From Neolewinella aurantiaca (GTDB lineage Bacteria > Bacteroidota > Bacteroidia > Chitinophagales > Saprospiraceae): DNA of 64,000 nucleotides. The notes below the pieces were generated by a model. The model was not told the origin of the DNA, searched no databases, and worked only from the letters and a program-made list of their open reading frames with translations. Shown here in pieces: positions 3,360 through 64,000 of the stretch (its first letter is position 1; each line of letters begins with the position of its first letter). Made by a program: the position numbers and the translations under genes. The stretch covers positions 1-64,000 of the forward strand of contig NZ_VOXD01000009.1 of NCBI RefSeq assembly GCF_008014675.1, in the 5' to 3' direction.

Positions 3360-3377
3360 GGCGCGGCCGCAGGTGCA
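3360..3377 (-). repeat. Dispersed TGCACCTGCG repeat, copy 1
   Basis: On the minus strand: TGCACCTGCGGCCGCGCC, intergenic. It forms an inverted pair with copy 2, 179 bp end to end. Confidence 0.9.
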
Positions 3378-3520
3378 ATGAAAAGCTAACGTATGGCAAA
3401 GTTGGGAATTTTTACAGATTAGTGCCGAATTTAATTTCGGCCTCCTCCGGCGGGGATCGCCTTACTCCGATTATGCACGACCGGGTTGAGCCGTTGCAAC
3501 TCTCCCTGAGACTCCTCCCC

Positions 3521-3538
3521 TGCACCTGCGACCGCGCC
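3521..3538 (+). repeat. Dispersed TGCACCTGCG repeat, copy 2
   Basis: TGCACCTGCGACCGCGCC followed by CGAAAAC, a 3' flank shared by several intergenic copies. Confidence 0.9.
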
Positions 3539-3585
3539 CGAAAACAGTTTGTTCCCGGCGGAATTACAGCAGCGGGTCGCTGCCA

Positions 3586-5361
3586 CTAAAATTCGTACCG
3601 CTGCCGCGCTACGTTCCACCTCACGCCCAGGTTGATGATGGTTGTTTCCTGATCATTGGCGGCAGCATCAGAATCTTTGCTCCGCGAGAAGTATTCCGCT
3701 TCGAGCCACAGATTGGGTTTAAGCTCGTAACCCGCCGTCAGAGAGATCAGGGTGTTGTCGTACCCGATTCCCTGCCCGATTTCGTTGCCGAAGTCCATCT
3801 CGCGTAAACCGTTGGGGCGGTTCAGGTTTTCGCCCACTACGAGGTCGTCGGTTCCTTCCCCCTGCGTAATCAGATACAGACGCCCTCTAAGGTGCAGCCG
3901 GGGAAGCGGACGGTACTCGATTGCCAGTAGATTTTCCTTGAAGTTCGCCCCCAAAGGGTGCGCCAGCGGCATCGCAAAGTGGGTGTAATTGCCCAGGCCA
4001 CGGTGGGTATAGGTGTAAGGGCGTACGTAGTTGCGCTCCACGGTGATGTCTAATTGATCGAGCCCGAATGCGTCTGCGTAGCGCGCACCGAGTTGATACC
4101 CGAATTTGTTGGCCCACCAACCCCGCTGCTCACTGAAGAGCTCGTCGAACTTGAACTCATCAATAATCAGCTGACCGTAGAGCTCTACCCGAAACGGCGT
4201 GCGGTACCGCCCGGTCAGGCCAACGATGGCGTTATCCGGGCTCCCGACGCTCTGCTCGATGGTGCGGTAAAGAATGATGGGATTGAGGTAAGCGAGGTCG
4301 AAGCCATCTTCGCGGCTCATCACGACCGATTCAAACAGACCGAAAGTAAACCGCCGGCCAAGGTTGATGCTCAGGTAGTGCGAAGCCATGTATTTTTTGG
4401 TCAGGGGTTGCCCCGATGCGGTCGCTCGTGCCGGACCAGAAGTAAGCTCAGCAAAGATGTTGCGGTAATGAAATTTCCAGATACGCCAGTTCAGTTCGAG
4501 ATAAGGATAGTTGTTGCTGAAATCGGACAAAAGCAACGAGCGTTCTCCGTCTCCGATGAAGTGCCGGCCGTAGCCCAGCCGGGCGCCTACGTGCTTCGTG
4601 ATGTCCGCCGAGAGATAGCCCTGCCCGTTGAGGTAATCCGTTCCACTTTCTACGTTGGCGATGTCGAGTGAGTATCTTTTATTGAAACCGGCTCCGGGCA
4701 CCGCATCAAAACGGTTACGAAAATCACGTACGAAATTGGGCAACCCCGCCTGGGTTTCCAAAATCTCGAAGTTGAGGAAAATACGATCGTCCAGGCCTGC
4801 CCTCAATTTCACCCCCCGACGATTGAAGAAGTAATCTTCGGTGTCGTCCTGTTGCTTTCCGTAACGGAAATCGAGCACGGGATTAAAGCGGAGGTAAAAG
4901 TCGGGCCGGTTCACTTCAAACATGTGTGCCGGCGTGGGGTAGAACACGTTGAGAATCTGATCCTGCGCCCGGTACAGCGGGCTTTCGACCGACTTCAGGG
5001 CGAAGTCATCACCACTCCAGAACGATGCCTGGTCCGGGTCCTCAGTGGCGGCGTACGGTTCGAGTGCCAGCCATTCGTTGTTATCGTCGTAAAACCGCTG
5101 CAGGCGGTAGTTGTCGGTTTTACTGAACTGGTCGCCGTAGATTTTCTGGTAGGTTTTGGCCAACCGGACAAGGCCTCCCCTGCTGGTGGGCCGCAGGCCC
5201 AGATCGGTTGCAGGCTGCTCAAAACCATCGTACCCGTAGCGGAGGCTAAGCCGACGAATCAGGTCATAAGTTTCGGTGTCCTCTACCGGCAACGGGCTGC
5301 CCTGAGCAACTAGAAAAGAACAACAAGCAAATAGAAAACAGGAAAAAAATACAATGCGCAT
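3586..5361 (-). CDS. Wzi/RemB-like outer-membrane beta-barrel
   Basis: A 591-residue secreted protein. From the ATG at 5361 it begins MRIVFFSCFLFACCSFLVAQ, a clean signal peptide, so I reject the longer frame up to 5472. The body contains many alternating aromatic beta-strands, with an early FYLRFNPVLDFRYG strand and a central GYGRHFIGDGERSLLLSDF block. That block is typical of the capsule-assembly Wzi family and of RemB, a Flavobacterium gliding-associated protein of similar layout. It ends in a beta-strand with aromatic terminus (RQRYEF). The likely place is the outer membrane, with a role at the cell surface. The exact role, polysaccharide attachment or motility, cannot be told from sequence. 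Confidence 0.75.
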   Translation of the reverse strand: MRIVFFSCFLFACCSFLVAQGSPLPVEDTETYDLIRRLSLRYGYDGFEQPATDLGLRPTSRGGLVRLAKTYQKIYGDQFSKTDNYRLQRFYDDNNEWLALEPYAATEDPDQASFWSGDDFALKSVESPLYRAQDQILNVFYPTPAHMFEVNRPDFYLRFNPVLDFRYGKQQDDTEDYFFNRRGVKLRAGLDDRIFLNFEILETQAGLPNFVRDFRNRFDAVPGAGFNKRYSLDIANVESGTDYLNGQGYLSADITKHVGARLGYGRHFIGDGERSLLLSDFSNNYPYLELNWRIWKFHYRNIFAELTSGPARATASGQPLTKKYMASHYLSINLGRRFTFGLFESVVMSREDGFDLAYLNPIILYRTIEQSVGSPDNAIVGLTGRYRTPFRVELYGQLIIDEFKFDELFSEQRGWWANKFGYQLGARYADAFGLDQLDITVERNYVRPYTYTHRGLGNYTHFAMPLAHPLGANFKENLLAIEYRPLPRLHLRGRLYLITQGEGTDDLVVGENLNRPNGLREMDFGNEIGQGIGYDNTLISLTAGYELKPNLWLEAEYFSRSKDSDAAANDQETTIINLGVRWNVARQRYEF

Positions 5362-9367: not shown

Positions 9368-9385
9368 TGCACCTGCGTCAGCGCC
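9368..9385 (+). repeat. Dispersed TGCACCTGCG repeat, copy 3
   Basis: TGCACCTGCGTCAGCGCC followed by ACGGAAAC, intergenic, just upstream of the phosphoesterase. Confidence 0.9.
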
Positions 9386-9392
9386 ACGGAAA

Positions 9393-10202
9393 CTATCGTA
9401 AAGAATCGATTCCGAAGTATGTTCTCGGGTAATCCTCTCCCACCAAAACGTAGGGTTTTATCCATTGCGAATCACGGAATACCTCGATGTTATGGGTGTC
9501 AGCAACGGCAAAAAGACGGATGGTTGCAAAGTATTTTTCGCGGTCCATCACTTCGTCGAAATAATCAGCATACGCCGGCAAATCATCAGGCGCGGTCGCA
9601 GGTGCAACGAACGTTTTTGCGAGCCGGGGAACTTCTTCTGCAGGAACTCTCCACAGCAAAGAATCGTGGAAACTCACCGTAATGCTGTCCACTTTTTCCG
9701 TTGCGACTTCCAGCGATCGTCTCCCACGGTAAGCATCGAAACAAAGCATTTTCTCCAGGGGTTCCCTGACGCTGGCCGGCAGCGCGAAAAGGTCGCCTGT
9801 GGCACCGACCTGTACAACGGGCGGCCCCTGAAGCGGGAAGCGAAAACTAAGTTCTTCCCGTTGCCCTCCTTCTCCCACCAGGATTACCGACGGGCCATGA
9901 ACCGCCGAAGACCGGCGCATCACGGAATCGGTTTGCAGGTTGTTCAGGATTTCGATCAGCCGGTCGGCTGCTTCGCTTTGGTCGTACAATTCGATGGCGT
10001 CCTGCTTAACGATCCAGCCGCCCTCTTCGCCCCGAAAGATCCGGAACCCGCGGCGATCGTTGGTTACCTTCAGCTCACGCAGCGTATTGGTATTGGTCAG
10101 CAGCAGGTTTTCGCGCAGGGGCTGATCGGTAAACGATTGCAGGTAGAACCAGCCGGCGTAAGCCATAGCTGCCAGGATCACTAAAGGAATCAGGGTACGC
10201 AT
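9393..10202 (-). CDS. Membrane-anchored or secreted protein, DUF4340-like, unknown function
   Basis: 269 residues. A single hydrophobic N-terminal segment (LIPLVILAAMAYAGWFYLQS) is followed by a soluble extracytoplasmic domain. Segments such as RELKVTNDRRGFRIFRGEEG and GGWIVKQ resemble the repeated beta-units of DUF4340 proteins (WxV-type strands after a short anchor). I assign no function. One dispersed repeat copy lies in frame and encodes VAPATAPD near residue 200, in a loop-like stretch. It shares the strand of the phosphoesterase (start 9295) and rdgB (stop 10290), and could be cotranscribed. Confidence 0.65.
   Translation of the reverse strand: MRTLIPLVILAAMAYAGWFYLQSFTDQPLRENLLLTNTNTLRELKVTNDRRGFRIFRGEEGGWIVKQDAIELYDQSEAADRLIEILNNLQTDSVMRRSSAVHGPSVILVGEGGQREELSFRFPLQGPPVVQVGATGDLFALPASVREPLEKMLCFDAYRGRRSLEVATEKVDSITVSFHDSLLWRVPAEEVPRLAKTFVAPATAPDDLPAYADYFDEVMDREKYFATIRLFAVADTHNIEVFRDSQWIKPYVLVGEDYPRTYFGIDSLR
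9589..9606 (-). repeat. Dispersed TGCACCTGCG repeat, copy 4 (inside a gene)
   Basis: Minus strand TGCACCTGCGACCGCGCC. It is read in the DUF4340-like gene as GCA CCT GCG ACC GCG CC. Confidence 0.9.
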
Positions 10203-11584: not shown

Positions 11585-11602
11585 GGCACCTGCGTTCGCG
11601 CC
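11585..11602 (+). repeat. Dispersed TGCACCTGCG repeat, copy 5
   Basis: GGCACCTGCGTTCGCGCC followed by CCCGAAAC. The first base differs from consensus. It is intergenic, upstream of the S9 peptidase gene. Confidence 0.85.
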
Positions 11603-15991: not shown

Positions 15992-16009
15992 GGCGGGGCC
16001 GCAGGTGCA
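15992..16009 (-). repeat. Dispersed TGCACCTGCG repeat, copy 6
   Basis: Minus strand TGCACCTGCGGCCCCGCC. Inverted pair with copy 7, 102 bp end to end. Confidence 0.9.
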
Positions 16010-16075: not shown

Positions 16076-16093
16076 TGCACCTGCGTCAGCGCC
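16076..16093 (+). repeat. Dispersed TGCACCTGCG repeat, copy 7
   Basis: TGCACCTGCGTCAGCGCC followed by CGAAAAAC, intergenic. Confidence 0.9.
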
Positions 16094-20742: not shown

Positions 20743-20760
20743 TGCACCTGCGTTCGCGCC
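20743..20760 (+). repeat. Dispersed TGCACCTGCG repeat, copy 8
   Basis: TGCACCTGCGTTCGCGCC, starting 8 bp after the mrdA stop codon. Confidence 0.9.
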
Positions 20761-20996: not shown

Positions 20997-22484
20997 ATGG
21001 CAGAATCTCTAGGCATCCTCACCCTCCTCCCGCCCCTTGTGGCCATCATTTTGGCCATCGTGACCCGTCAGGTTTTCATATCCCTCATTGTGGGTATTTT
21101 CATTGGTTACGTGATCATGGCCGGAGGCAACCCCTGGCTTGGCTTTCTGGACACGATGCAGGGTCTGGTAGACGTATTTGCGGACGCGGGGAATACCCGG
21201 ACCATTATGTTTTGCGCGCTCGTTGGGGCACTTATTGTGTTCATGCAGCGCTCCGGCGGCGTGGCGGGGTTCATCGCTTTCGTTGAACGAAAACTCAGGA
21301 AATACGAGAACCGTCAGGACGGATCCGGGCGGGTTGTGGTTCAGCTTTTAGCCTGGCTGACGGGCGCCTTAATCTTCGTAGAAAGCTCCATCAGCGTTCT
21401 TACCGTCGGCACGCTGTACCGGCCCATCTTTGACAAAATGGGAATCAGCCGGGAAAAGCTCGCTTACATCGCAGATTCCAGTTCGGCTCCTAGTTCCATT
21501 CTCATCCCCTTCAATGGTTGGGGCGCCTTCATCATGACTTTACTCGTAGCAGAGGGCTTTGCGGACCCGTTCAGCACGATGATCAAGGCGCTTGGCTATA
21601 ACTTCTACGCTATCCTGGCGCTCCTGCTGGTTCCGGTGGTAATTCTCTCGAAGCGCGACTTCGGGCCGATGAAAAAAGCAGAAGAACGCGCCCGCCGGGG
21701 GCAAGTGCTCAGCGAAGGAGCAACCCCGGTGGTTGACACAGAACTTACCGACATTGCAGCCAAAGACGGGGTGACGCCTAACCTGTGGAACATGGTCCTG
21801 CCCATCGTAATTATGGTCTTGGCGATGCCACTAATGCTCGCCTACACCGGTTGGGAAACTGCACGGGACGCACTGGGCGCGGACGCAGGTGCAGGGGAAG
21901 TTTTCATGCTCGCGATCGGTAAAGGTTCCGGTTCCACCTCTGTTCTGGTTGCTGTTGCGTTGTCTATACTCGTGAGCATGGGCTTTTACAAAGCGCAGGG
22001 CATATTCGGCATTCGTGAGAGCGTTGACCTGGTGCTCAAGGGTATCGCCGGGCTGATTCCGCTGGCGCTGCTCATGCTACTCGCTTTCGCGATCGGCTCG
22101 CTTTGCAAACAGCTCGAAACCGGCATCTACGTTGCCGACGTAGCCAAAGATTTCCTCTCTCCCGGCCTCGTCCCCTTCATGGTATTTGTGGTCACTTGCT
22201 TCATCGCGTTCAGTACGGGCTCAAGCTGGGGTACCTTCGCCATCATGATTCCCATCGCCGTCCCTATGGCGAACCAGATGGATGCCAACGTACTGATGGC
22301 CATCGCTGCCGCCCTCGGCGGCGGGGTTTTCGGCGACCACTGCTCTCCAATTTCAGACACAACCATTTTGTCGAGTATGGCCTCGGCTACCGACCACGTA
22401 GACCACGTCAAGACGCAGCTTCCCTACGCCGGCATTGCCGGCGGCCTGGCGGGCCTTACCTATCTGATACTGGGCCTCATCTGA
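20997..22484 (+). CDS. NhaC-like Na+/H+ antiporter family protein
   Basis: An integral membrane transporter of 495 residues with about twelve hydrophobic segments. I choose the ATG at 20997 (MAESLGILTLLPPLVAIIL), which leads directly into the first helix. The frame is open to 20928 but the extra residues are polar. The segment GGGVFGDHCSPISDTTILSS near residue 450 is diagnostic for the NhaC/antiporter family, as is FVESSISVLTVGT earlier. It likely exchanges sodium for protons, in keeping with a marine lifestyle; organic-acid exchange is an alternative. One dispersed repeat encodes GADAGA in a loop between helices. It converges on the next gene with a 2-bp gap. Confidence 0.85.
   Translation: MAESLGILTLLPPLVAIILAIVTRQVFISLIVGIFIGYVIMAGGNPWLGFLDTMQGLVDVFADAGNTRTIMFCALVGALIVFMQRSGGVAGFIAFVERKLRKYENRQDGSGRVVVQLLAWLTGALIFVESSISVLTVGTLYRPIFDKMGISREKLAYIADSSSAPSSILIPFNGWGAFIMTLLVAEGFADPFSTMIKALGYNFYAILALLLVPVVILSKRDFGPMKKAEERARRGQVLSEGATPVVDTELTDIAAKDGVTPNLWNMVLPIVIMVLAMPLMLAYTGWETARDALGADAGAGEVFMLAIGKGSGSTSVLVAVALSILVSMGFYKAQGIFGIRESVDLVLKGIAGLIPLALLMLLAFAIGSLCKQLETGIYVADVAKDFLSPGLVPFMVFVVTCFIAFSTGSSWGTFAIMIPIAVPMANQMDANVLMAIAAALGGGVFGDHCSPISDTTILSSMASATDHVDHVKTQLPYAGIAGGLAGLTYLILGLI
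21876..21893 (-). repeat. Dispersed TGCACCTGCG repeat, copy 9 (inside a gene)
   Basis: Minus strand TGCACCTGCGTCCGCGCC, the exact consensus. In the antiporter gene it is read as GGC GCG GAC GCA GGT GCA. Confidence 0.9.
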
Positions 22485-22486: not shown

Positions 22487-23944
22487 TTACCGGTTCACCA
22501 GCCGGTAGGCCCACCGCAGGATTTTCGGGACCGGCCCGCTGGTGAGCATATCTGAGGCGCCCTGCCGGGCGCCTTTCTGCACGATCCGGCTGGCGACCGG
22601 GTAAGGATAGATCATATTCGTTAGCGCCGAGTACTTCTTGCCTTCGGTTTGCAGGTAGTGCAGCGTCTGGATCATTTCTCCGGCAGCGGGGGCGGCCAAT
22701 GAGCCGCCCAGGACTTTGCCTCCTCCCCACCAGCCCTTGCTGAGGTAAACGATGAGGTGACCGCCGCGAAAATCGGCAGCGATGGCCCGGTCGTCGTCCT
22801 TAAGGGAGAGCTCGCGGGTTTCGAAGTCGATGCCTTTTTCCTTAAAGCGTTTGGGCGTCATCCCGAAGGTGGCGATCTCCGGATCGGTGAAGGTTACCCA
22901 GGCAAACTTATCGAGGTTGTGTTTTTTCTTGATCGGACTGATGAGGTTGTTCCACAGTTGGGTATTGTGAAACTCGGCGCCGTGGCTAAACTGCTCGCCG
23001 CCCCAGGCGTCGCCGATGGCATAAACCGAAGAGTTGGTGGTTCGGTAACGATCGTCGGTGACGATTTTCCCCTTTTCGACCTTTACCCCGCCCTGCTCCA
23101 GGCCGAGCCCTTCGGTACGGACTTTACGCCCGATCGCAACGAGAAGGTGGGTAAATTCAAGTGTACGTCCGGCGTTCCCTGCACCTGCGGCCCCGCCATC
23201 TTTCAACAATGCAGTAGTTGCATTAGTGAACGAGCCGATCTCGGTGTTGAACCTGATATCCACTCCTTCTTCTTCCAGCTTTCGGGCCAGGATGTCGCCC
23301 ATCACTTCGGGGTCTTTCTCGTTGAGGCGCTCCCCGCGGACCAGCAGCGTCACTTTGCTTCCCAACCGGGTAAAAGCCTGACTGAGTTCGCAACTGATCG
23401 GTCCGCCACCTACTACCAGCAGGTGTTCGGGGAGCTCGTCGAGCTCCCAGAAGACGGATTCGTTGTCCCACTGTTTTACCTGATCAATTCCCGGCACCTC
23501 CATTTTGCGGGGTACCGATCCCGTTGCGAGAACGATGTTCGGAGCGGTCAGTTTTCGACCGTTCACGGATACTTCGTTGCGGCCGGTCATTGCAGCTGTA
23601 CCGACAATGGTTTCGGTTCCGAATTCTTTAGCGAAATACTCAGGTGTTTCGTGCGCCCTGATCACTTCCTGCCGGCTGTGTACATATTCCATCACCTTTT
23701 TGAAATCTGCCTTTCCTTCCGTTTTCAGGCCAAAGGCTTCTGCTTCTTTGCCACCCGCAAAGAGGCTCGCGACGTGAAGAATGGCTTTGCTCGGCACGCA
23801 GCCGTAGTTGAGGCAATCTCCGCCAAACGCCTTGGCAGTTTTGTCGATCAGGGCAACATTGAGGCCGATAGAAGAGCCGAATCCGGCACAGCCGAGGCCA
23901 CCGGAACCAGCACCGATTACGATGAGGTCGTGAGTATAATTCAT
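22487..23944 (-). CDS. FAD-dependent pyridine nucleotide-disulfide oxidoreductase (dihydrolipoamide dehydrogenase/MerA-like)
   Basis: 485 residues. FAD site IVIGAGSGGLGCAGFG at the start, redox-active disulfide FGGDCLNYGCVPSK near residues 40-53, NAD(P) site LLVVGGGPISCELSQAF, and FAD-binding VYAIGDAWGG. The C-terminal dimer domain lacks the HPTxxE acid-base pair of true lipoamide dehydrogenase; the matching place reads MIYPYPVASR. It therefore probably acts on another disulfide, quinone or metal substrate. One repeat copy encodes a Gly/Ala-rich insert (GGAAGAGN) near residue 250, at a domain surface. Convergent with the antiporter, 2 bp apart. Confidence 0.85.
   Translation of the reverse strand: MNYTHDLIVIGAGSGGLGCAGFGSSIGLNVALIDKTAKAFGGDCLNYGCVPSKAILHVASLFAGGKEAEAFGLKTEGKADFKKVMEYVHSRQEVIRAHETPEYFAKEFGTETIVGTAAMTGRNEVSVNGRKLTAPNIVLATGSVPRKMEVPGIDQVKQWDNESVFWELDELPEHLLVVGGGPISCELSQAFTRLGSKVTLLVRGERLNEKDPEVMGDILARKLEEEGVDIRFNTEIGSFTNATTALLKDGGAAGAGNAGRTLEFTHLLVAIGRKVRTEGLGLEQGGVKVEKGKIVTDDRYRTTNSSVYAIGDAWGGEQFSHGAEFHNTQLWNNLISPIKKKHNLDKFAWVTFTDPEIATFGMTPKRFKEKGIDFETRELSLKDDDRAIAADFRGGHLIVYLSKGWWGGGKVLGGSLAAPAAGEMIQTLHYLQTEGKKYSALTNMIYPYPVASRIVQKGARQGASDMLTSGPVPKILRWAYRLVNR
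23180..23197 (+). repeat. Dispersed TGCACCTGCG repeat, copy 10 (inside a gene)
   Basis: TGCACCTGCGGCCCCGCC within the oxidoreductase gene, where it encodes part of GGAAGAG. Confidence 0.9.
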
Positions 23945-24050: not shown

Positions 24051-26177
24051 TTAGAAGCGCCAGATGGCCTGTGCCCCCATTTCTGTTCTGCGAGGCAGGC
24101 CTGTTTCCTCCAATCCGCTGCCGGCAACGGTACCGTCGGTATAGAACGTTTGGGCGATCCGGCCTTCGAGCGTCAGCCCGCGGATCCCCTTATAACGCAC
24201 CAGAAAAAAAGCACGGGTTCCCCGGTTGTAGTACGGTACTACGCGGGCATTGTAGAGCAGACCATTTTCGTACTGGTAGAAACGTACGTTGAAACCGTCG
24301 GTATCGAAGAAGGCCATTCTGGTACTGAAACTAAAGGCGCCACGGGGGCGGTAATGCAGGTCCTGGTAAACCATGAAGCCCTTTTCACGACCGTTGAGTT
24401 CATCGTCGGTGAAGCCGGCATCGATGCGGCTACGCCACTCCAGAAATGAATTGATCTTGTAACCGAAGTGCAGACGCGCCTGAAAACGGGTTCGTGGTAC
24501 TACCGGGTCCAGGTTTGTGAAAACGGATTCATCTCCGTCGGTACCGAAACCTTTGGTTTCGGAGCGCAACTCCAGATAAGTTTCCAGCTTTCGTTTTTGC
24601 CAGTAAGTGACCCGGAAACGGTATTCGTGGCCCTCGCTCGGTGCGTCGATGTTGAAGCGGAGGTAAGGGAAGCGGAAAACATCGTAGTAAGCATTAACAC
24701 GCCAGTGCTTGCCGGGCCGTAGCTCGAGGCCGAGGTACATACCGTTTTCGTTGCGCCCTCCGCTGGTTTCTCCGAAGGGACGGGCGTTGAGGGCCTGGTA
24801 ATCGACACCGTAATTGCGGTACACGAGGGAAACGTCGACGAAGCGGTCCAGCCCCATCATCAGGCCATGTATCTGGGCGACTCCTCCGTTGTCGGAACCA
24901 GCCAGCTCACCGAAGAACGTAAAGTTACGGTAGCGGTAACGGTAATCCAGGCTTGCGTTCAGAAGGTCAGTGCCCTGAAAAAAGAAACGGTTGTAAGCCT
25001 GATCGTTTAGGTTGAGCGGCTGGCTTAGGTTAGTGCCCAGTACGTTCAGTCCGACCTGCAGACGCTGATTCGCGCGGTACCTCAGGCTGCCTCCATAGTT
25101 GATTTCAGTGATAGAGTTCCGGTCTTCTACCTCATTCGGTGTACGGTTCAGGCCGGAGATATTGAGGCTCGTAACGCCAAGGTCTTCTGCTTCCACATCG
25201 AGGGTATCGGTTACCGTAATGAGGTTTGCCGTTCTGCCTTTCCGGCTACCGAAGACGGATAGTTCCAGTTTATCACCGAAGGCGAGGGTCGTTCCGGCTC
25301 CGCGCATGAAGCTGGCCTCATTCACGCTGGTGTAGGGCCGCAGTACCGGCCCGCCGCGGGCAACGTTTGTGGTCTGGCTGCTCTTTCCGAACCCGAAGCC
25401 CGTGTACAGGATCAATCCCTGCCCGAAGCTTACGGCAAAATCACCGAGAGCCACCGCCTTCACCGTCCGGTTCACATTCCCTAAAAAGAAGTGAGCGCTG
25501 TAAAAGTCGAAGCCTCGTTTTTTATTGTTTTCTGCAAAAAATGCCTCACCGGGGTCTTTCTCGGCGGTAATACCGAAGCTGAGGTTCTTAGAATACCGCT
25601 GCCGGAAACGGGTGTATATCCTGTCCGGGCTTCCGAGGTAATAACTGGTTCCATCCTCGGGTCCGAGTTCATAGCCCCGGGCGGTTTCCAGCCTCCGCTG
25701 CCAGCGTACATACAGCTCGCGGTCGCCTTCGGCGAGCATGCGGCCAAGCGGAATTTTGGCATCATCTAGGTCTCCCCCTACGCGAACGAACTGTGCCAAA
25801 CGACGGACAGACTCCATGTCCATCCCCGGAATTACCTGTAATTCGTAGACACTCAGCAGTCCCCCCATCCGGTCCCGGTAATCGATCAGCTGGCCAATCT
25901 GAATGGGAGAAAGCAACAGCGTTTCTTCCAGTTCTTCATAGGTGGCTTTGTTGATATTGAGTGGTCGCCGGCGGTAGGTTTCCAGCAGGTCAAAAGCAGC
26001 GTTGAACGAGAATTCGTCCGTTTCATCTTCCGTATTCGCGAGTACGTCTTCGATGAGTTGCTGCTGGAACTCGTCGTCTTCCCCGATTCCGGGCGGGAGC
26101 GTGTCCTTTTGAGCATGAAGCATTGTTCCCCAAACGGCCAGGGTCAACAGAATGATCAGGCGGGGACGCAGGTGCAT
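24051..26177 (-). CDS. Outer-membrane beta-barrel protein with N-terminal helix-hairpin-helix (ComEA-like) domain
   Basis: 708 residues from the ATG at 26177 (MHLRPRLIILLTLAVWGTML), a signal peptide; an ATG six codons earlier is possible. Residues about 70-125 form a ComEA-type helix-hairpin-helix unit: PLNINKATYEELEETLLLSP, then GQLIDYRDRMGG and YELQVIPGM. The remaining ~550 residues are amphipathic beta-strands ending in AQAIWRF, a barrel with the C-terminal aromatic. HhH units bind DNA non-specifically, and ComEA is the periplasmic DNA receptor of competence, so a role in DNA handling at the envelope is possible but unproven. The start codon itself is formed by a dispersed repeat copy. Confidence 0.78.
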   Translation of the reverse strand: MHLRPRLIILLTLAVWGTMLHAQKDTLPPGIGEDDEFQQQLIEDVLANTEDETDEFSFNAAFDLLETYRRRPLNINKATYEELEETLLLSPIQIGQLIDYRDRMGGLLSVYELQVIPGMDMESVRRLAQFVRVGGDLDDAKIPLGRMLAEGDRELYVRWQRRLETARGYELGPEDGTSYYLGSPDRIYTRFRQRYSKNLSFGITAEKDPGEAFFAENNKKRGFDFYSAHFFLGNVNRTVKAVALGDFAVSFGQGLILYTGFGFGKSSQTTNVARGGPVLRPYTSVNEASFMRGAGTTLAFGDKLELSVFGSRKGRTANLITVTDTLDVEAEDLGVTSLNISGLNRTPNEVEDRNSITEINYGGSLRYRANQRLQVGLNVLGTNLSQPLNLNDQAYNRFFFQGTDLLNASLDYRYRYRNFTFFGELAGSDNGGVAQIHGLMMGLDRFVDVSLVYRNYGVDYQALNARPFGETSGGRNENGMYLGLELRPGKHWRVNAYYDVFRFPYLRFNIDAPSEGHEYRFRVTYWQKRKLETYLELRSETKGFGTDGDESVFTNLDPVVPRTRFQARLHFGYKINSFLEWRSRIDAGFTDDELNGREKGFMVYQDLHYRPRGAFSFSTRMAFFDTDGFNVRFYQYENGLLYNARVVPYYNRGTRAFFLVRYKGIRGLTLEGRIAQTFYTDGTVAGSGLEETGLPRRTEMGAQAIWRF
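26159..26176 (-). repeat. Dispersed TGCACCTGCG repeat, copy 11 (at a start codon)
   Basis: Minus strand TGCACCTGCGTCCCCGCC. Its first two bases are the TG of the ATG at 26177, so it encodes MHLRPRL. Confidence 0.9.
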
Positions 26178-26195
26178 AGAAGGTTGGAGAAGCAT

Positions 26196-34233: not shown

Positions 34234-34251
34234 TGCGCGAACGCAGGTGCA
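34234..34251 (-). repeat. Dispersed TGCACCTGCG repeat, copy 14
   Basis: Minus strand TGCACCTGCGTTCGCGCA, intergenic, 17 bp after the barrel stop codon. Confidence 0.88.
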
Positions 34252-36365: not shown

Positions 36366-36383
36366 TGCTCCTGCGACCGCGCC
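36366..36383 (+). repeat. Dispersed TGCACCTGCG repeat, copy 15 (variant)
   Basis: TGCTCCTGCGACCGCGCC, one change in the core, 22 bp after the cardiolipin synthase stop codon. Confidence 0.8.
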
Positions 36384-36571: not shown

Positions 36572-36589
36572 GGCGGGGACGCAGGTGCA
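36572..36589 (-). repeat. Dispersed TGCACCTGCG repeat, copy 16
   Basis: Minus strand TGCACCTGCGTCCCCGCC, intergenic. Confidence 0.88.
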
Positions 36590-38433: not shown

Positions 38434-38451
38434 TGCACCTGCGTCCGCGCA
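38434..38451 (+). repeat. Dispersed TGCACCTGCG repeat, copy 17
   Basis: TGCACCTGCGTCCGCGCA followed by AAAAGAG, intergenic, 10 bp after the sigma factor stop codon. Confidence 0.9.
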
Positions 38452-44727: not shown

Positions 44728-46170
44728 TTATTGCACCTGCGTCTGCGCCTCCTGATCATCCCCGGCCGGATAAAACGGCGGGCGGATTTCGGCGTTCATC
44801 TCTTCCTGCAATTTGCCGATGAGTCTTTCTAACTCGTCCGCTTTTTCGGGAAACTTCTCCGCAACATTGTACTTTTCGGCGGGGTCTCCGTGCAGGTCGT
44901 ACAGTTCCAAACCAGTGGTTGTGTAGGCGTAGCCGCCGCGTATGCCATCGTCTCCTACTTCGTCAACGAAGCGGAAGCTGTGGGGAATATGCAATTTCCA
45001 TTTACCCAGCCGTACGGCCTCGATTTTGCCCGAACGATAGTAACAAAACGGCTCTTTATCAGGCGCGTACGCAGGATGCCGAAAATCGGTAAAAAGAGCA
45101 GAGATGTCTTGCCCGTCGATTTTAGCAACGGGCAATTCGGCGGCGCTCAGCGCCGCAAACGTAGGCAGGATATCCATCAGTGAAGCCGTGCGGTGGCTGA
45201 TGTTCCCGGCGTCGATCTTTGCCGGCCAACGCGCAATCATCGGTACCCGCATCCCTCCTTCGAAAGTGGTCCCTTTGCCTTCGCGGAAGGGGCCGGCGGA
45301 CCCGGCCTGGTTTCCGTACGTTAGCCAGGGACCGTTGTCCGAAGTGAACACCACCAGGGTGTTCTCGTCCAGATTCAGGCGTTTGAGCTCGGCGATGATG
45401 GTGCCTACCGAACCATCTATTTCCTCCACAACGTCGGCATAGACTCCTTGCCGGCTACGATCGGCGTAAGCATCACCGGTGAACAACGGGATGTGGGGCA
45501 TGGAATGTGCCAGGTACAGAAAAAAGGAAGTGTCTTTGTTTTCCCTGATAAAATCGAGCGATCGTTGGGTGTACCACTGAGTGATCAGCGCCTGATCTGG
45601 GTTGTACGCTACCGGCTTTTCGTCGTCGTACACCGGAAGGTCGGGGTATCCATCCTCAGGGAGCATATCGTTGCTGTAAGGCAGCCCGAAGAAGAAGTCG
45701 AACCCCTGCCGGCGGGGCATGGTTTCCGGCCAGTGGCCGAGGTGCCACTTACCGACCATCCCCGTTGCGTAGCCTGCCGTTTTCAGGACTTCGGGCAGCG
45801 TTGTTTCGTCGGGGTGCAGCCCGTACTGAACGTGTGAGGTCCATGCCGGGCCGGTTGGGCCGATTACGTTTGGAATGCCAACCCGTGGAGGGTAGCACCC
45901 CGTCATCAGAGCTGCCCTGCTCGGGGAGCAAGACGGAAAGGCATAGAAATTGGTAAACTTCAGCCCTTCGGCCGCCATCCGGTCCAGGTGCGGAGTATGG
46001 ATACGGTGCGAGCCGTAGCAACTGAGATCGCCGTACCCAAGGTCATCCGTCAGGATGACAATCAGGTTGGGAAGACCAGGCCCGGGAGCCGTTGTCTTTG
46101 CGGGTTCCCCGCAGTTGCTGAGGGAAAGAAGTACGGTACTGAGTATTACCGTTCGGATGAGACCTTGCAT
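44728..46170 (-). CDS. Sulfatase (arylsulfatase A-like), putative lipoprotein
   Basis: 480 residues. An export signal with lipobox LSLSNCGEP suggests a lipid-anchored periplasmic or surface enzyme. The alkaline-phosphatase-fold core has LTDDLGYGDLSCYG (metal site) and CSPSRAALMTGCYPPRVG, whose CxPSR cysteine is the residue converted to formylglycine by a sulfatase-maturing enzyme (not in this window). It also has MVGKWHLG and SDNGPW. It likely removes sulfate from algal or marine polysaccharides. The last seven residues, EAQTQVQ, are encoded by a dispersed repeat placed right at the stop codon. Confidence 0.93.
   Translation of the reverse strand: MQGLIRTVILSTVLLSLSNCGEPAKTTAPGPGLPNLIVILTDDLGYGDLSCYGSHRIHTPHLDRMAAEGLKFTNFYAFPSCSPSRAALMTGCYPPRVGIPNVIGPTGPAWTSHVQYGLHPDETTLPEVLKTAGYATGMVGKWHLGHWPETMPRRQGFDFFFGLPYSNDMLPEDGYPDLPVYDDEKPVAYNPDQALITQWYTQRSLDFIRENKDTSFFLYLAHSMPHIPLFTGDAYADRSRQGVYADVVEEIDGSVGTIIAELKRLNLDENTLVVFTSDNGPWLTYGNQAGSAGPFREGKGTTFEGGMRVPMIARWPAKIDAGNISHRTASLMDILPTFAALSAAELPVAKIDGQDISALFTDFRHPAYAPDKEPFCYYRSGKIEAVRLGKWKLHIPHSFRFVDEVGDDGIRGGYAYTTTGLELYDLHGDPAEKYNVAEKFPEKADELERLIGKLQEEMNAEIRPPFYPAGDDQEAQTQVQ
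44732..44749 (+). repeat. Dispersed TGCACCTGCG repeat, copy 18 (at a stop codon)
   Basis: TGCACCTGCGTCTGCGCC. On the gene strand the stop TAA follows directly after the repeat. Confidence 0.9.
45062..45080 (-). repeat. Variant dispersed repeat word, second identical 19-mer
   Basis: Same 19-mer as at 27824-27842, here in the sulfatase gene (HPAYAPD region). Confidence 0.5.
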
Positions 46171-49186: not shown

Positions 49187-49204
49187 GGCGCGGCCGCAGG
49201 TGCA
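49187..49204 (-). repeat. Dispersed TGCACCTGCG repeat, copy 19
   Basis: Minus strand TGCACCTGCGGCCGCGCC followed by CCGGAAAAC, the fullest form of the extended consensus. Intergenic. Confidence 0.92.
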
Positions 49205-50004: not shown

Positions 50005-50022
50005 TGCACCCGCGTTAGCGCC
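50005..50022 (+). repeat. Dispersed TGCACCTGCG repeat, copy 20 (variant)
   Basis: TGCACCCGCGTTAGCGCC, intergenic, upstream of the response regulator. Confidence 0.75.
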
Positions 50023-52465: not shown

Positions 52466-52483
52466 GGCGCGGCCGCAGGTGCA
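52466..52483 (-). repeat. Dispersed TGCACCTGCG repeat, copy 21
   Basis: Minus strand TGCACCTGCGGCCGCGCC followed by CGGAACC, intergenic. Inverted pair with copy 22, 162 bp end to end. Confidence 0.9.
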
Positions 52484-52570: not shown

Positions 52571-54268
52571 ATGCGAGCCAATTTACTCTGCTTCCTTATC
52601 CTGTTGCTTTGCACCTGCGTCCCCGCCCAGATGGACGCACAGAGCACCTCAGAACTCATTGAAGCCCTCGACGACGCCGACACCGATGCCGAGCGCTACG
52701 GGATCCTGTATGACCTGACCGGGCAGCTTCTGGAATCCGGGCGCAAGGAAGATAAAGCCCTGGCAGTCACCTTCAGTAAGCAACTTTACACTACCGCCAA
52801 GCGCCTGCCGGACACGAAACTGGTCGGGCCGGCAGCCTACACCCTGGCGCTGGCGTACCGCAACCAGCGCGACGACCGCAATACCGATAAGTTCATGGCC
52901 GAGGCCGTTACCGCCGGCATGAAAGCCGGCCAGCCCGACCTCATCATGATGGCGGTTGCCGAACGCAACCGCCTGGCCACTAAGGCCCGCAATTACCGCG
53001 AAGCAGCGGCCATAAGCCAGCGCGCACTCGATTATTTCACCAAAAACGGGGACGACCGCAGCCTCTCGGCCCTGCGCGCCCAACTACAGCGCGAACAAGC
53101 CGCATTGCAACGCAGACGGCGAGAAATAGAAAACGAAACCCGCCAGCTTGCCGGCGAAATCGATCGGCTGCAAAGCGAGAAAAACCAGCTCAGCGGCTCC
53201 AATCAGGAGCTGAAAGGGACCAACCAAAAGCTCAAAAAGGAGAACCTTACCAGAGCGGAACAACTCGCCCAACGAGCACAGGAACTGGAAGAAAGCAACC
53301 GGGAACTCGCCCAGACCCAGGAAGAAAAAGCCGTAGTGGAAGCCCGCGTTGCCGAAAGCAAAAAAGAGATAAGCGCCCTGAGCCGCGAAGCACTCGAGCA
53401 AAGAATGCTTGCTACCGAAACCCGTGAACAACTCGTAGAAGCAGAACTTATACGCCAGGAAGCAGAAATGAAGGCCGAGCGCCAATCCACCCAGCTCTAT
53501 ATGGCCCTGGGGGCCGGGGCTGCGCTTCTTCTTCTGGTCCTTACGGTCCTGTCGCGCCTGAGGGTAAAAAAGCGCAGCGCCGAAAAACTGAAAGCGGCCA
53601 ACAACGATCTCGATGCCGCCCGGCAACAGTCCGACGATCTGCTCAAAAACATCCTCCCCGTCGAAATCGCCGAGGAACTGAAAGCGACGGGCAAAGCCCG
53701 TGCCCGGCGTTTCCCCGACGCAACGGTGCTGTTTTGCGACTTCGTGAACTTCACCAAAACGGCAGAGCGCCTGGGCGCAGAAGCGCTCGTGCAGGAGCTC
53801 GACGTTTGCTTCAAGGCTTTCGACAAAATAATGGACAACTATCCCGGCGTCGAGAAGATTAAAACCATCGGCGATGCCTACATGGCAGCTTCGGGCCTTT
53901 CGTCCCGGAAGACGCTCCCGAACGACATCATCCGGGCAGCGCTCGACATGCAGAAATTCCTCAACGACGAGGGTAAGAAGCGGGCTGAGCTCGGGCTTCC
54001 GTTCTTCAGTGGTCGGATTGGCCTGCACACCGGCCCGGTTGTGGCCGGCGTGGTGGGTGCCCGTAAGTTCGCCTACGACATCTGGGGAGACACCGTCAAC
54101 GTAGCCAGCCGGATTGAAGGTAAAAGCGAGCCCGGCCGGGTCAATATTTCAGAATCTACTTACGACCGGATCAAGTACAAGTTCCGCTGTACCTACCGGG
54201 GCAAGGTAGAGGCCAAAAACAAAGGTCTCATTGAGATGTACTTTGTTGAAGAAGAGTTTAGTTCGTAG
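52571..54268 (+). CDS. Membrane-bound class III adenylate cyclase with periplasmic helical/coiled-coil domain
   Basis: 565 residues from the ATG at 52571 (MRANLLCFLILLLCTCVPAQ), an export signal. Residues 25-170 are helical TPR-like; 173-306 a long coiled coil; 309-332 a transmembrane helix (LYMALGAGAALLLLVLTVLS); 365-560 the cytoplasmic cyclase domain. Catalytic features: metal aspartate in LFCDFVNFTKTAE, second metal aspartate in IGDAYMA, adenine-selecting lysine in EKIKTIGD and aspartate in FAYDIWGD, and transition-state NVASR. It should make cAMP from ATP in response to a periplasmic or membrane signal. The signal peptide contains a dispersed repeat copy. Confidence 0.92.
   Translation: MRANLLCFLILLLCTCVPAQMDAQSTSELIEALDDADTDAERYGILYDLTGQLLESGRKEDKALAVTFSKQLYTTAKRLPDTKLVGPAAYTLALAYRNQRDDRNTDKFMAEAVTAGMKAGQPDLIMMAVAERNRLATKARNYREAAAISQRALDYFTKNGDDRSLSALRAQLQREQAALQRRRREIENETRQLAGEIDRLQSEKNQLSGSNQELKGTNQKLKKENLTRAEQLAQRAQELEESNRELAQTQEEKAVVEARVAESKKEISALSREALEQRMLATETREQLVEAELIRQEAEMKAERQSTQLYMALGAGAALLLLVLTVLSRLRVKKRSAEKLKAANNDLDAARQQSDDLLKNILPVEIAEELKATGKARARRFPDATVLFCDFVNFTKTAERLGAEALVQELDVCFKAFDKIMDNYPGVEKIKTIGDAYMAASGLSSRKTLPNDIIRAALDMQKFLNDEGKKRAELGLPFFSGRIGLHTGPVVAGVVGARKFAYDIWGDTVNVASRIEGKSEPGRVNISESTYDRIKYKFRCTYRGKVEAKNKGLIEMYFVEEEFSS
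52610..52627 (+). repeat. Dispersed TGCACCTGCG repeat, copy 22 (inside a signal peptide)
   Basis: TGCACCTGCGTCCCCGCC, read as TGC ACC TGC GTC CCC GCC (CTCVPA). Confidence 0.9.
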
Positions 54269-55316: not shown

Positions 55317-55396
55317 TAGTTAGTAGTGGGTAGTGCTTCCGCGAGGGATAAAGTGCGGCAGCACTACCCACCACGTTCTACCCACTACCTACTACT
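55317..55396. repeat. ACTACCCAC-type repeat as an inverted pair (copy C), acting as hairpin
   Basis: GTGGGTAGTGCT (55326-55337) pairs with AGCACTACCCAC (55360-55371), and TAGTTAGTA/TACCTACTA extend outward. It lies between convergent hydrolase and Omp85-like genes and may terminate both. Confidence 0.75.
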
Positions 55397-56690
55397 AAAA
55401 ATACTGCCCAAAACCAGCCACAAAACCTCGTTCCCGGGAGTGGCGCACATCCACCCCGTAATCAAGGCGGAGCACGGCGTTGTAAGCCTTCAGGCTGATA
55501 AAGCGAAGACCGCCGCCTACGAAATGGCGGAAGTTGCGTTCGTCCCAGATGTCGGAGATTTCGCCGCCGGGGTTGCGCCAGCTGCCCAGGTCGGAGAAGC
55601 CGACGGCCTGCAGGGCGAAGCGATCTTTCTGGTCTTTCAGAGCAGTGAGGCGGTACTCCAGATTGAGGATGAGCTGGGCGGTTCCGCGGTCGATCCGGTT
55701 GCCGGAGCCACGGATGTTTACCTGGCTATCCAGGACGAAAGGGGCGAAAGGGCTGTTGTTGTTGGTAGACACCCCGGCGCGCAGCCTCACGGCCAGGTTC
55801 GTCGCTTTGCCAACCATGCGGTAATACCGGAAATCGTGCCAGGCGATGAGGAAGTTGTCGTCGGTTCCGTTAAAGGTACGGACGGCCTGAAAGACGGTTT
55901 CGTTGGCGGTACCCGCCAGTCGTTCCCAGTGATAATCGAGTTTTCGGCGGCCATGACTCAGCTTCAGGAGGCCTTTGTTGAGTTTTAGCTCCCGGGGACC
56001 GGGAGAACCGGGTTCAGCCTCTGTTTTTCGGTAATCTTCGTAGAAATTGCTGAGCCCGAAGCGGAAGACGTGGCGGTTCGGGGTAGTGTAACTGATCCCC
56101 GCCCCAAAATTCAGGTTAGAGTAGATGTAACGGACAGTCTCGGGGAAATACAACGGCTCGATGGCGGCGTAACGACGACTCTCAAGCTGATAGCCCCAAC
56201 GGGATCCGTTGAGGTTCGGATTCGTAAAACTGAGGTAGTAATTGTGCTGGCCGTCGATGTTTTGGTAGAACGCCGTGATGCTTTGGCCACGGCCACGAAA
56301 GTGCGAATCGGTAAAGCCGAGCAGGTAGTAAAAATTCCCCTTCACGCCGCCAAGGTCGAGCAGCGGAAACAGGGTCCGGGCTTCTTCGATGTCCCATTCT
56401 ACAGATAGGTTTTCGCGGGAAGAATCGATGGTAAAGCTCGCCCGGGTGATGGCGGGCAGATTGATCAGATCTTGCCGAAGACCGGTCAGGGCATCCGTCA
56501 GTTGCTGGCCCGGCGGCAGGTGCAAGGCAAGGTTTTCGGGCGAGGTACCGGCTTGCAATACTTTGCTCTTCGCATCCAAATACTGCACCTGCGTGCGCGC
56601 CAGACCCGTGAAGTACTGGGGTATTTGTGCGTACAGAGTGATCGGCAACAATAAGTTTAAAAACAACAGGCAGCGAAAGGAAAACATCAA
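55395..56690 (-). CDS. Omp85/BamA-like outer-membrane barrel with a short N-terminal region
   Basis: 431 residues. Signal peptide MMFSFRCLLFLNLLLPITLY(AQ). Residues about 30-110 could hold only one POTRA-like unit (ALTGLRQDLINLPAITRASF). The rest is a barrel with DLGGVKGNFYYLLGFTDSHF, GYQLESRRYAAIEPLYFP, and VNIRGSGNRIDRGTAQLILNLEYR, the last resembling the VRGY-type lid strand of Omp85 proteins. It ends in GQYF with the aromatic terminus. It is too short to be the main BamA. Two dispersed repeat copies lie inside the region after the signal peptide. Confidence 0.72.
   Translation of the reverse strand: MMFSFRCLLFLNLLLPITLYAQIPQYFTGLARTQVQYLDAKSKVLQAGTSPENLALHLPPGQQLTDALTGLRQDLINLPAITRASFTIDSSRENLSVEWDIEEARTLFPLLDLGGVKGNFYYLLGFTDSHFRGRGQSITAFYQNIDGQHNYYLSFTNPNLNGSRWGYQLESRRYAAIEPLYFPETVRYIYSNLNFGAGISYTTPNRHVFRFGLSNFYEDYRKTEAEPGSPGPRELKLNKGLLKLSHGRRKLDYHWERLAGTANETVFQAVRTFNGTDDNFLIAWHDFRYYRMVGKATNLAVRLRAGVSTNNNSPFAPFVLDSQVNIRGSGNRIDRGTAQLILNLEYRLTALKDQKDRFALQAVGFSDLGSWRNPGGEISDIWDERNFRHFVGGGLRFISLKAYNAVLRLDYGVDVRHSRERGFVAGFGQYF
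56507..56524 (-). repeat. Dispersed TGCACCTGCG repeat, copy 23 (degenerate, inside a gene)
   Basis: Minus strand TGCACCTGCCGCCGGGCC, two or three changes. Pairs with copy 24, 95 bp end to end. Confidence 0.55.
56584..56601 (+). repeat. Dispersed TGCACCTGCG repeat, copy 24 (inside a gene)
   Basis: TGCACCTGCGTGCGCGCC. In the Omp85-like gene it encodes part of LARTQVQ. Confidence 0.88.
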
Positions 56691-62221: not shown

Positions 62222-62248
62222 TCCTCAGCTCACTTTACGAACGATACG

Positions 62249-62295
62249 GAAAAAGCGAAGTCCGGCAGATCTAAGCTGTCGGACTTCGCTTTTTT
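62249..62295. terminator. Bidirectional rho-independent terminator
   Basis: AAAAAGCGAAGTCCGGCAG pairs with CTGTCGGACTTCGCTTTTTT around a 7-base loop; A-run on the left and T-run on the right serve both directions. It closes phoD-btaAB and the converging BatA-type gene. Confidence 0.93.
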
Positions 62296-62296
62296 A

Positions 62297-64000
62297 TCAG
62301 GCCCGCCAGAAGCGAAGCAAAAGAACCTCCACGAGGAAGAAAGCCAGTGCGCCCCAGATGAAGTACCGCCAAAGCGGGGTTCCTTCGTTTCGTTCCCGGA
62401 TGTCGCCGATCAGACTGGCTTGGTTGTCGGCATCGAGAAGCGCAACGTTGGGGATGCTGGCCAGTTCGGCCAGTTCATTCGCATCGAGGTAAGAAAGATC
62501 GGATTCTTTGCGGTCATAGTTGAAAGCAAAAGCATCCACTATTTCATCGCCCAGAACGAGGTCGTAAGTGCCCGCTTCGGGCACCTGGTTGTTGAGGCTA
62601 AGCAGTACCCGGTTATCCACCACTCTTTGCTCGGGGATGAACTCTCCGTTCTTACCGCGCAATTTGAAAACGATGTCTGCACCTGCGCCCCGCCTGCTGG
62701 TTTGGATTACCTCGTCCTGCCCGATGGTGTAAGCGGCCTGACGTCTGCGTCCGCTGCTGATGCCCATTTTGTAGAGCATGGGAATGAAGATTTCGGCGTT
62801 GAGGGCGAGGTTGTTGATCTCGTTATCGAGCGGAGCACTGGAAAGGTAAACGTTTCCTTCGCCGAGCGTATACTTGGCCAGTGCCGTAGAGCCGTCGCGG
62901 TAGGTCAGTAATGATTCCTGCTGACGGCTTCCTACGCGCCCGATGGGGAAATTGCCCGTCGTTGCGGGCAACCGCAGTGCACTTGAGCGGTTGCGGAACA
63001 CGTCACGGAAAATGAATTCCCGGCGGTTCAGTCCGCTCACTTCGCGGTTCTGCTCCACGAATGCATCCAGCCGGTCGGAGCCAACGCGGGTCAGGAAAGT
63101 ATTGTAACTGTTCACATCAGCGTTTGCGGGCGGGAAGATGAGGATGTTACCACCGTTTTCCACGTAGAGCCTCAGTTGCTCGGCCAGGCCGGAGCCGACC
63201 GAAACCTGATCGGTCAGTACAATCAGGTCGTTTTCTGCCAGCGATCCGTAATCGATGTTACGGCTACCGACGTAGTTGGCCGCGAAGACGGAGAGCCCGC
63301 CCAGCGCTGCGCGCAGGTTGCGCTGCGGTTGCCCGTCGTCGTCGATATTGAGCACTTTCACCTTGTCGGCGGTACGAAAAGTGAGGTGGTAGACGTCGTC
63401 GAACTGAACGGGGAAGTCGGTGATCCGAAGTTCTGCGCGTCCGATGCCAGGCTCGGAGATATTGAGGTAAACCGAATCGGTGACGTAGCTGCGGGCGGGG
63501 ATGCTCAGTGTTCCTTCCGGTTTGCTTTGCCCCAGGTAGTTCTGGCTGAGGCGCACATTGTCGAGGTCTTCGTTTCCGTAGTTACGGATGCGGACCAGCA
63601 GCAGGTTGTTTTGGTTCAGCTGCGGCACCGGAGCCTCGAACCATACCGAATCGATCCCGACGTTGCGTTCCCGGACGCTGGTGAGCGGCACAAGGTTTAC
63701 CTGCACGGAAGTCTCCAGTTTTTCTGCGGAGAGGTCCACCACATTACGCTGAAAATCGGAGACCAGGTAAGTGATTTTATTCTCAATGTTTTCGGTGCGA
63801 AGCGCCGAACGCTGGCGGCCGTTCACCACCGAAAGACGGCGACTGGCGGGGGCCACTTTTATGTCTTCGATGAGTTCCAGCGCTTCTTCCTGACCAACCA
63901 GGCGCTGGTTCCGGCCTCTGAAATCGTTATCGACCACCTGGAAGCGGTCTTCAACTCCGTAGGCATTCACGATATCCCGGGCACGATCCTTGGCAATCTG
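62297..64000 (-). CDS. BatA-domain membrane protein, C-terminal part, cut by window edge
   Basis: 568 codons visible; the frame continues past the right edge (IAKDRARDIVNAYGVEDRF reads through), so the N-terminal BatA region with its two usual helices is missing here. Visible parts: a beta-sandwich region (LNQNNLLLVRIRNYGNEDLD, VYLNISEPGIGRAELRITD), a flavodoxin-like or DUF4159/GATase-like region (KVLNIDDDGQPQRNLRAAL, YVENGGNILIFPPANAD), and a C-terminal helix YFIWGALAFFLVEVLLLRFW. Such proteins occur next to aerotolerance (Bat) operons and have no proven function. A repeat copy encodes RRGAGAD. Confidence 0.78.
   Translation of the reverse strand, partial: QIAKDRARDIVNAYGVEDRFQVVDNDFRGRNQRLVGQEEALELIEDIKVAPASRRLSVVNGRQRSALRTENIENKITYLVSDFQRNVVDLSAEKLETSVQVNLVPLTSVRERNVGIDSVWFEAPVPQLNQNNLLLVRIRNYGNEDLDNVRLSQNYLGQSKPEGTLSIPARSYVTDSVYLNISEPGIGRAELRITDFPVQFDDVYHLTFRTADKVKVLNIDDDGQPQRNLRAALGGLSVFAANYVGSRNIDYGSLAENDLIVLTDQVSVGSGLAEQLRLYVENGGNILIFPPANADVNSYNTFLTRVGSDRLDAFVEQNREVSGLNRREFIFRDVFRNRSSALRLPATTGNFPIGRVGSRQQESLLTYRDGSTALAKYTLGEGNVYLSSAPLDNEINNLALNAEIFIPMLYKMGISSGRRRQAAYTIGQDEVIQTSRRGAGADIVFKLRGKNGEFIPEQRVVDNRVLLSLNNQVPEAGTYDLVLGDEIVDAFAFNYDRKESDLSYLDANELAELASIPNVALLDADNQASLIGDIRERNEGTPLWRYFIWGALAFFLVEVLLLRFWRA
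62678..62694 (+). repeat. Dispersed TGCACCTGCG repeat, copy 25 (inside a gene, one base short)
   Basis: TGCACCTGCGCCCCGCC, a 17-mer with the full 10-base core and one base lost from the variable part. Confidence 0.82.

Follow-up and report, generated by a model that had tools for sequence, protein, structure and literature searches.

The first 64,000 nucleotides of contig NZ_VOXD01000009.1 of Neolewinella aurantiaca (assembly GCF_008014675.1; this whole stretch is referred to below as the window) carry a short DNA word, TGCACCTGCG, that recurs on both strands, raising the question of what such a word is for in a member of the Bacteroidota. A first-pass annotation of the window had likened it to the DNA uptake sequences of Neisseria and Pasteurellaceae, with a nucleoid or methyltransferase site as the alternative. 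Our counts agree with those given there: 20 exact copies, compared to a mean of 0.11 in 100 dinucleotide shuffles (maximum 1), and 5 close variants, for a total of 25 words (Table 1), of which 15 read on the plus and 10 on the minus strand and 14 are intergenic according to our own open reading frame caller. A looser match at 61358 was judged to be due to chance and was left out, and all gene calls were made with our own codon-model script rather than a standard gene finder. Over the whole genome (5.996 Mb in 104 contigs), the exact word was found 553 times forward and 581 times in reverse, i.e., 1,134 copies or one per 5.3 kb, whereas the control with reversed letters was found 0 and 2 times, respectively. 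With regard to signatures of the type of FtsK-orienting polar sequences (KOPS), matS, or parS, no strand skew was evident on four long contigs (43/40, 49/40, 21/16, and 28/27 copies), and the copies listed, which were not mapped relative to the origin, are spread over many contigs.

The word had been described as the 10-mer followed by four variable bases and CGCC, and this holds for most copies: among the 108 exact copies in 459 kb (contig C1, 80 kb of contig C2, and the window), 96 are followed by N4-CGC. The loop itself is less regular than described, spanning 3 to 6 bases and mostly 4, and the CGGAAA-like flank reported with it is better replaced by the consensus of these copies, i.e., a pyrimidine-rich tract from −18 to −13, AA at −10 and −9, C at −7 and −3, a pyrimidine at −1, TGCACCTGCG, the loop, CGCC, a further C, and an A-rich end. 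As conservation stops about 25 bases from the word, the copies are not parts of a longer repeat, and a longer mobile repeat was rejected on these grounds.

The seventh core base is free in variants (TGCACC[ACG]GCG), and the sequences can be written as TGCACCTGC-N-NNNN-N'-GCC, with all four Watson-Crick pairs interchanging at N and N'. When words with a four-base loop anchored on TGCACC were tabulated in the 459 kb, the combinations were GCG/CGC (119 words), GCT/AGC (5, with different flanks), and GCC/GGC (2), followed by GCG/GCG (4), GCG/GTC (4), GCT/AAG (3), GCG/GCC (3), and others found once or twice, part of these rarer ones being words with longer loops. In the whole genome, 42 of the 46 words of the form TGCACCTGC[ACT]-N4-N-GCC form a Watson-Crick pair (T-A, C-G, or A-T), 2 form a wobble pair, and 2 are mismatched, while only 2 words read TGCACCTGCG-N4-[AGT]GCC. 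We examined 6 of the 20 relatives, picked among the word-rich genomes, and words with a base other than G at this position paired in 14 of 15 cases in G002, 19 of 23 in G003 (with one further wobble), 6 of 7 in G018, and 5 of 7 in G006 (with one further wobble). With all seven genomes pooled, 92 of 116 such words pair (20,000 shuffles gave a mean of 37.6 and a maximum of 63); when identical sequences within a genome are collapsed into one, 48 of 71 pair (mean 21.2, maximum 36). Because 29 of 43 T-A words share the loop GCCG, not all of the T-A words are independent. Altogether, GCN and N'GC on a strand with the local spelling are able to pair over a short loop, and compensatory changes preserve the pair.

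The stem comprises about 3 bp and folds weakly, and its covariation is compatible with a palindromic hairpin. Since a protein dimer bound to the duplex does not need compensation, we read the covariation as pairing within one strand, which makes a methyltransferase site or an ordinary duplex-binding nucleoid site unlikely. From the sequence pattern we infer that the word is read on single-stranded DNA, where, given the weakness of the isolated fold, a protein would have to hold the folded word.

The exact 10-mer occurs 11 to 1,193 times in each of 20 other genomes of the genus, 0 to 35 times in 16 genomes from other genera of the family, and 0 to 22 times in 23 genomes from the rest of the order. 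The extended pattern gave at least 80 matches in named genomes, at least 66 of them in Neolewinella or Lewinella, at least 9 in a Bacteroidia bin, at least 3 in a Saprospiraceae bacterium, and at least 2 in others; among the matches listed for viral contigs, which are scattered and nearly all single, nothing could be concluded. K-mer counts in up to 80 kb each of six genomes of other genera (G021, G022, G023, G027, G033, and G034; G024 was left out as too short) revealed no word of this make. The spelling of the word differs between species. G011 has 11 copies of TGCACCTGCG but 675 and 669 copies (1,344) of TGCTACTTTG on the two strands, a sequence present at most 12 times in each of the other 20 genomes; its full form is RRC-N-Y-TGCTACTTTG-N(1-2)-AG[CT]C-A-rich, sharing with the local words C-N-Y-TGC, a free seventh base, and the GCC/A-rich end. 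G001 favors a six-base loop, ACCTGCG-NTCCGN-CGCC (235 copies, with 57 in G007, 53 in G015, and 14 in this genome), and at one aligned site the four-base-loop form stands in G004 and the six-base form in G001. In G013, GGCACCCGCG was found 11 times in 80 kb.

We analyzed the spacing of words in 459 kb of this genome (G000; 125 words), 400 kb of G005 (77 words), and 540 kb of G011 (126 words), leaving out any match with a neighbor on its own strand no more than 10 bases away. Only 2 same-strand pairs lay closer than 2 kb, compared to 76.0 expected (0/32.9 in G000, 0/14.1 in G005, and 2/28.8 in G011), and 13 lay at 2 to 3 kb, compared to 37.7 expected, with expectation reached from 3 kb. For control 8-mers with 60 to 160 copies, none of 226 fell to 0.1 of expectation, the lowest value being 0.18. 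A further 101 weaker words, detected by weight matrix and kept outside the main pair count, likewise avoid strong words on the same strand (0 versus 11.7 expected below 500 bp; 7 versus 35.1 at 500 to 2,000 bp). Opposite-strand pairs behave differently: below 250 bp they are in threefold excess (29 versus 9.7 expected), and they are mostly head-to-head (28 to 10 under 500 bp), while at other distances they range from 0.57 to 1.18 of expectation, with the minimum at 1 to 1.5 kb. Neighboring words alternate in direction above chance (90/122, 55/75, and 85/124), and same-strand gaps have a coefficient of variation of 0.58 to 0.63. The words are thus spaced per strand, and a second same-strand copy within about 2 kb is avoided.

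Could this exclusion be nothing but instability of direct repeats, which can delete, the word having no single-strand role? We give this account almost no credence. Other direct repeats of at least 14 bases at 100 to 2,000 bp persist in this DNA, numbering 101, 234, and 146 (inverted ones number 11, 29, and 4), some of them from repeat-rich genes or arrays, so general repeat instability is not the reason for the exclusion, and the covariation would be left unexplained. The regular per-strand spacing would also suit a site for replication, repair, or the nucleoid that each strand must carry at intervals. We consider such a site quite improbable, as a fork-linked site should be strand-skewed, unlike the words on the four long contigs, and a change of spelling is difficult to reconcile with a core function. 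A polar recombination signal like Chi, read on the unwound strand from one side by an end-processing enzyme so that each strand needs its own copies, would account for the strand-specific redundancy. Known Chi sites are 5 to 8 linear bases, usually skewed to one strand; the density here is near that of Chi in Escherichia coli, and polarity is possible in both. The word, however, is about 18 bases long, has flanks and a covarying stem able to fold, shows no strand skew, and is spelt otherwise in a congener, so that we regard a Chi-like signal as distinctly unlikely.

Placement relative to genes was determined for the pooled words of the three genomes, edge words without two neighboring genes being dropped (2/108, 2/133, and 3/328 in the respective tallies). 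Of 325 words, 188 are intergenic, although intergenic DNA makes up 22% of bases, and 137 (42%) are genic, with 64 sense and 73 antisense. Compared to the expectation from gap length, divergent gaps hold 66 words versus 47.5, convergent gaps 26 versus 30.1, and same-direction gaps 96 versus 110.4. In a first tally, all 8 exact copies that are sense and in frame lie 29 to 65 bases from a start. An RNA element, such as a leader hairpin in transcripts, would explain the stem covariation and a bias in words up to 300 bp upstream of starts, 85 of which point into the gene and 50 away. We nonetheless find it very improbable: sense and antisense words are alike in number within genes, words between same-direction genes are 24 same to 23 opposite in G000 (though 18 to 11 in G011), and no Rfam match was obtained in the window at the gathering threshold.

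Comparison of orthologous places gave 87 alignments, species with another spelling included, representing about 10 independent sites (part of G005 was counted twice, and high-scoring segment pairs within one genome were dropped). The word is kept in 50, 24 of these without a nearby gap; of the 37 without the word, 16 have no gap, 13 have a gap in the word, and 8 have a gap nearby. At 21876 to 21893, antisense in a conserved frame, a word or near-word is present in 6 of 9 aligned relatives and absent from G001, G004, and G011; the 18 bases align free of gaps, except for a one-base gap in G011 (one alignment), and an insertion in G004 adjoins. As the word varies here by in-frame substitution, it is not an inserted element at this site; insertion may have occurred elsewhere and for intergenic copies. 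At 23180, words align in G018, G005, and G002, and the linker is gapped in G014 and G019.

We tentatively favor the reading that the word is a self tag in the exchange of single-stranded DNA, kept up by molecular drive and akin to the uptake words of Neisseria and Haemophilus without the usual pilin; this is quite possible, if short of probable. During DNA exchange, a protein would bind one strand at its folded word, whether the strand is imported, loaded, or recombined, and strands with the local spelling would thereby be favored. One word would suffice for a strand of a few kilobases, so nearby same-strand copies would bring no gain, and the other strand would need its own word. Preferential exchange of word-bearing strands would spread and maintain the word, as proposed for uptake words, and copies would accumulate mostly where the sequence is free to change, i.e., in intergenic DNA, signal peptides, and linkers. 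Uptake would need a route other than type IV pili.

The DNA uptake sequences (DUS) of Neisseriaceae and uptake signal sequences (USS) of Pasteurellaceae depend on type IV pili. Genome-wide uptake words are established in these two families, which are named in PMC1939737, and dialects in related species are described in PMC3630211. The parallel drawn by the first-pass annotation stands as regards about a thousand or more copies, their occurrence on both strands and both in and between genes, the species spellings, and retention at orthologous places; it fails on the covarying stem, the strand-specific 2-kb exclusion, and a genus whose genomes lack the N_methyl pilin domain. Two features tested, i.e., orientation independence without self-complementarity and a type IV pilin, are absent here, and the word therefore falls outside the DUS/USS family by its definition, although its mode of action may be similar. 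In the same phylum, Riemerella columbina prefers its own DNA in competition, according to PMC7965970, where no functional word is identified and, unlike here, the frequent k-mers listed are A/T-rich; this preference counts in favor of exchange.

As for machinery, this genome has one comEC gene, but so do 10 of the 14 controls, among them E. coli. Transformation of Riemerella anatipestifer requires an outer-membrane protein with a carboxypeptidase-regulatory-like domain as well as comEC, dprA, and a helix-hairpin-helix protein, and the genes named for it in the relevant part of PMC8459023 include none for type IV pili. Directly downstream of comEC here (L048, 14212-18192) lies a gene for a 1,326-residue protein with a carboxypeptidase-regulatory-like domain and a weak type IX secretion system sorting tail; its likeness to the R. 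anatipestifer system may serve as a lead only. A literature search returned, by title, nothing on a GIY-YIG single-strand nuclease like that of Neisseria.

Several observations weigh against a self tag for exchange. The N_methyl pilin domain (PF07963) was found in 0 of 21 genomes of the genus and 8 of 14 controls, other pilus genes not having been searched; no report of competence in Neolewinella was found, no search under that name having been made; and published uptake words, as presented in PMC1939737, work in either orientation and are not palindromes. Four oligonucleotides with the local spelling fold in isolation no better than shuffles; three fold as expected (−1.2 to −4.8 kcal/mol), and the A-T one is predicted to fold otherwise. 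Words with a base other than G pair in just 1 of 9 cases in G012 and 5 of 9 in G005. The stem is unsupported in the TGCTACTTTG spelling, where 13 seventh-base variants have the same tail, contrary to a CT/AG stem, and compensation is missing from 2 third-base variants, contrary to a GCT/AGY stem. G004 has only 61 exact copies (control 15), with no replacement word seen in 120 kb, and words upstream of starts are biased toward the gene (P = 0.003).

A folded single strand and one-strand interference would also be expected if the word were a target, similar to repetitive extragenic palindromic (REP) elements, of an HUH (Y1) transposase of the REP-associated tyrosine transposase (RAYT) type. Such a hairpin with a conserved foot would be copied or recombined as single strands, and same-strand copies less than about 2 kb apart would disappear because the enzyme cuts out the DNA between them. 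The word shares with REP elements a short, dispersed hairpin and inverted pairs, in keeping with the excess below 250 bp, and RAYT-like genes occur in the genus: Y1_Tnp was matched in 20 of 21 genomes, and two such proteins of this genome match NCBIfam REP_Tyr_transpos at 59 and 72 bits, below the cut-off of 80. In G011 (L521, 535-1576), 27 bases separate the start of a word from the 3' end of the only Y1_Tnp match, with a second, inverted word near, and the gaps within the word in 13 of the 37 aligned losses leave room for insertion at some sites. Yet G018 has 578 words and no Y1_Tnp match (the genome is 95% complete in 880 contigs, so that a miss is possible), word and Y1_Tnp copy numbers do not track each other, and the 15 loose word matches in 22 RAYT-like loci (46 kb) are about what genome density gives by a rough estimate without a formal test; apart from the close case in G011, neither a clear excess of words beside transposase genes nor a general link to them was seen. 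REPs favor unidirectional and convergent gaps near 3' ends (PMC3733652), whereas the words here overuse divergent gaps and not convergent ones; 42% are genic, the clearest genic one varying by in-frame substitution; and a constant GTAG/CGTC tag is missing, GTAG being seen only in the complement of the G011 spelling. We therefore regard a REP-like target as unlikely. The RAYT-like Y1 transposase genes across the genus lie at L218 1159-1863, L219 1183-1836, and L521 to L540.

If the word does tag self DNA for exchange, it would be a third, unrelated case of uptake words, this time in Bacteroidota, which would mean that codes of this sort have arisen more than once. Both the covarying stem and the strand-specific exclusion zone can be measured, and they point to reading of the word on one strand at a time, so that the purpose of such words, be it uptake, recombination, or self-recognition, becomes testable in a new setting, with a handle on the genetics of a little-studied group. 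With more reservation, we put forward that the per-strand series of hairpins and the species spellings might constitute a genome-wide code on folded single-stranded DNA, serving pilus-independent self-recognition in strand exchange of Bacteroidota, of a kind not described so far. Among the matches listed in a literature text search for TGCACCTGCG, none was on such a repeat judging by title, and by title likewise nothing related was found on palindromic repeats in Lewinella, nor on Bacteroidota words in a search for DNA uptake sequences in Bacteroidetes.

Table 1. Words in the 64,000-nucleotide window. "Word" denotes an exact TGCACCTGCG core; CDS, coding sequence.
Coordinates	Strand	Element	Location and remarks
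3360..3377	-	word TGCACCTGCG-GCCG-CGCC	intergenic
3521..3538	+	word, loop ACCG	intergenic; head-to-head with 3360
9368..9385	+	word, loop TCAG	intergenic
9589..9606	-	word, loop ACCG	sense within CDS 9393-10202
11585..11602	+	variant word GGCACCTGCG-TTCG-CGCC	intergenic
15992..16009	-	word, loop GCCC	intergenic; head-to-head with 16076
16076..16093	+	word, loop TCAG	intergenic; aligned words in G003, G008, G005
20743..20760	+	word, loop TTCG	intergenic
21876..21893	-	word, loop TCCG	antisense within CDS 20997-22484
23180..23197	+	word, loop GCCC	antisense within CDS 22487-23944; length-variable linker
26159..26176	-	word, loop TCCC	near start of CDS 24051-26195; aligned words in G003, G008, G005
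28708..28725	+	variant word TGCACCCGCG-TCCG-CGCC	antisense, CDS 27375-29198; word aligned in G008, one-base-off form in G005
33687..33704	+	word, loop CCCT	in frame, signal-peptide-like region (..LLCTCALALL.., translated by eye)
34234..34251	-	word, loop TTCG, end CGCA	intergenic
36366..36383	+	variant word TGCTCCTGCG-ACCG-CGCC	intergenic
36572..36589	-	word, loop TCCC	intergenic
38434..38451	+	word, loop TCCG, end CGCA	intergenic
44732..44749	+	word, loop TCTG	antisense, 3' end of CDS 44728-46170
49187..49204	-	word, loop GCCG	intergenic
50005..50022	+	variant word TGCACCCGCG-TTAG-CGCC	intergenic
52466..52483	-	word, loop GCCG	intergenic; head-to-head with 52610
52610..52627	+	word, loop TCCC	in frame, signal-peptide-like region (..LLLCTCVPAQ.., translated by eye)
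56507..56524	-	compensated variant TGCACCTGCC-GCCG-GGCC (C-G for G-C)	sense within CDS 55395-56687
56584..56601	+	word, loop TGCG	antisense within CDS 55395-56687; head-to-head with 56507
62678..62694	+	word, 3-base loop CCC	antisense within CDS 62297-63970

Other repeats were observed alongside the word. The window holds at 300-864 a local array of the repeat GAGTCGGGAGTC, with 13 copies on the minus strand, and smaller GAGTCGGGAGTC clusters lie on contig C1 of the same genome, near 6.0 to 6.3 and 284.8 to 284.9 kb. The words frequent in G021, G034, G016, and G001 resemble local arrays or repeats of other kinds: arrays are of the CTGGAGCTCC type in G001 (L052, 3737-5511), the CCGATTGACC type in G021 (L190, 11603-11913), and the AATCTGCG type in G016 (L185, 15500-16310), while G034, from another genus, has scattered AGACGTTAGA and other frequent words (L200, L202, and L203), which may be a further family of short repeats. 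In the G011 sample, the longest stretch without a word spans 26.5 kb (C60, 29 to 56 kb; L253 9350 to L254 15697) and holds a defense-like cluster with TOTE conflict-system proteins, an OLD-like TOPRIM ATPase, and GmrSD; 10 of its 13 called genes were scanned, and the others among these are ordinary.

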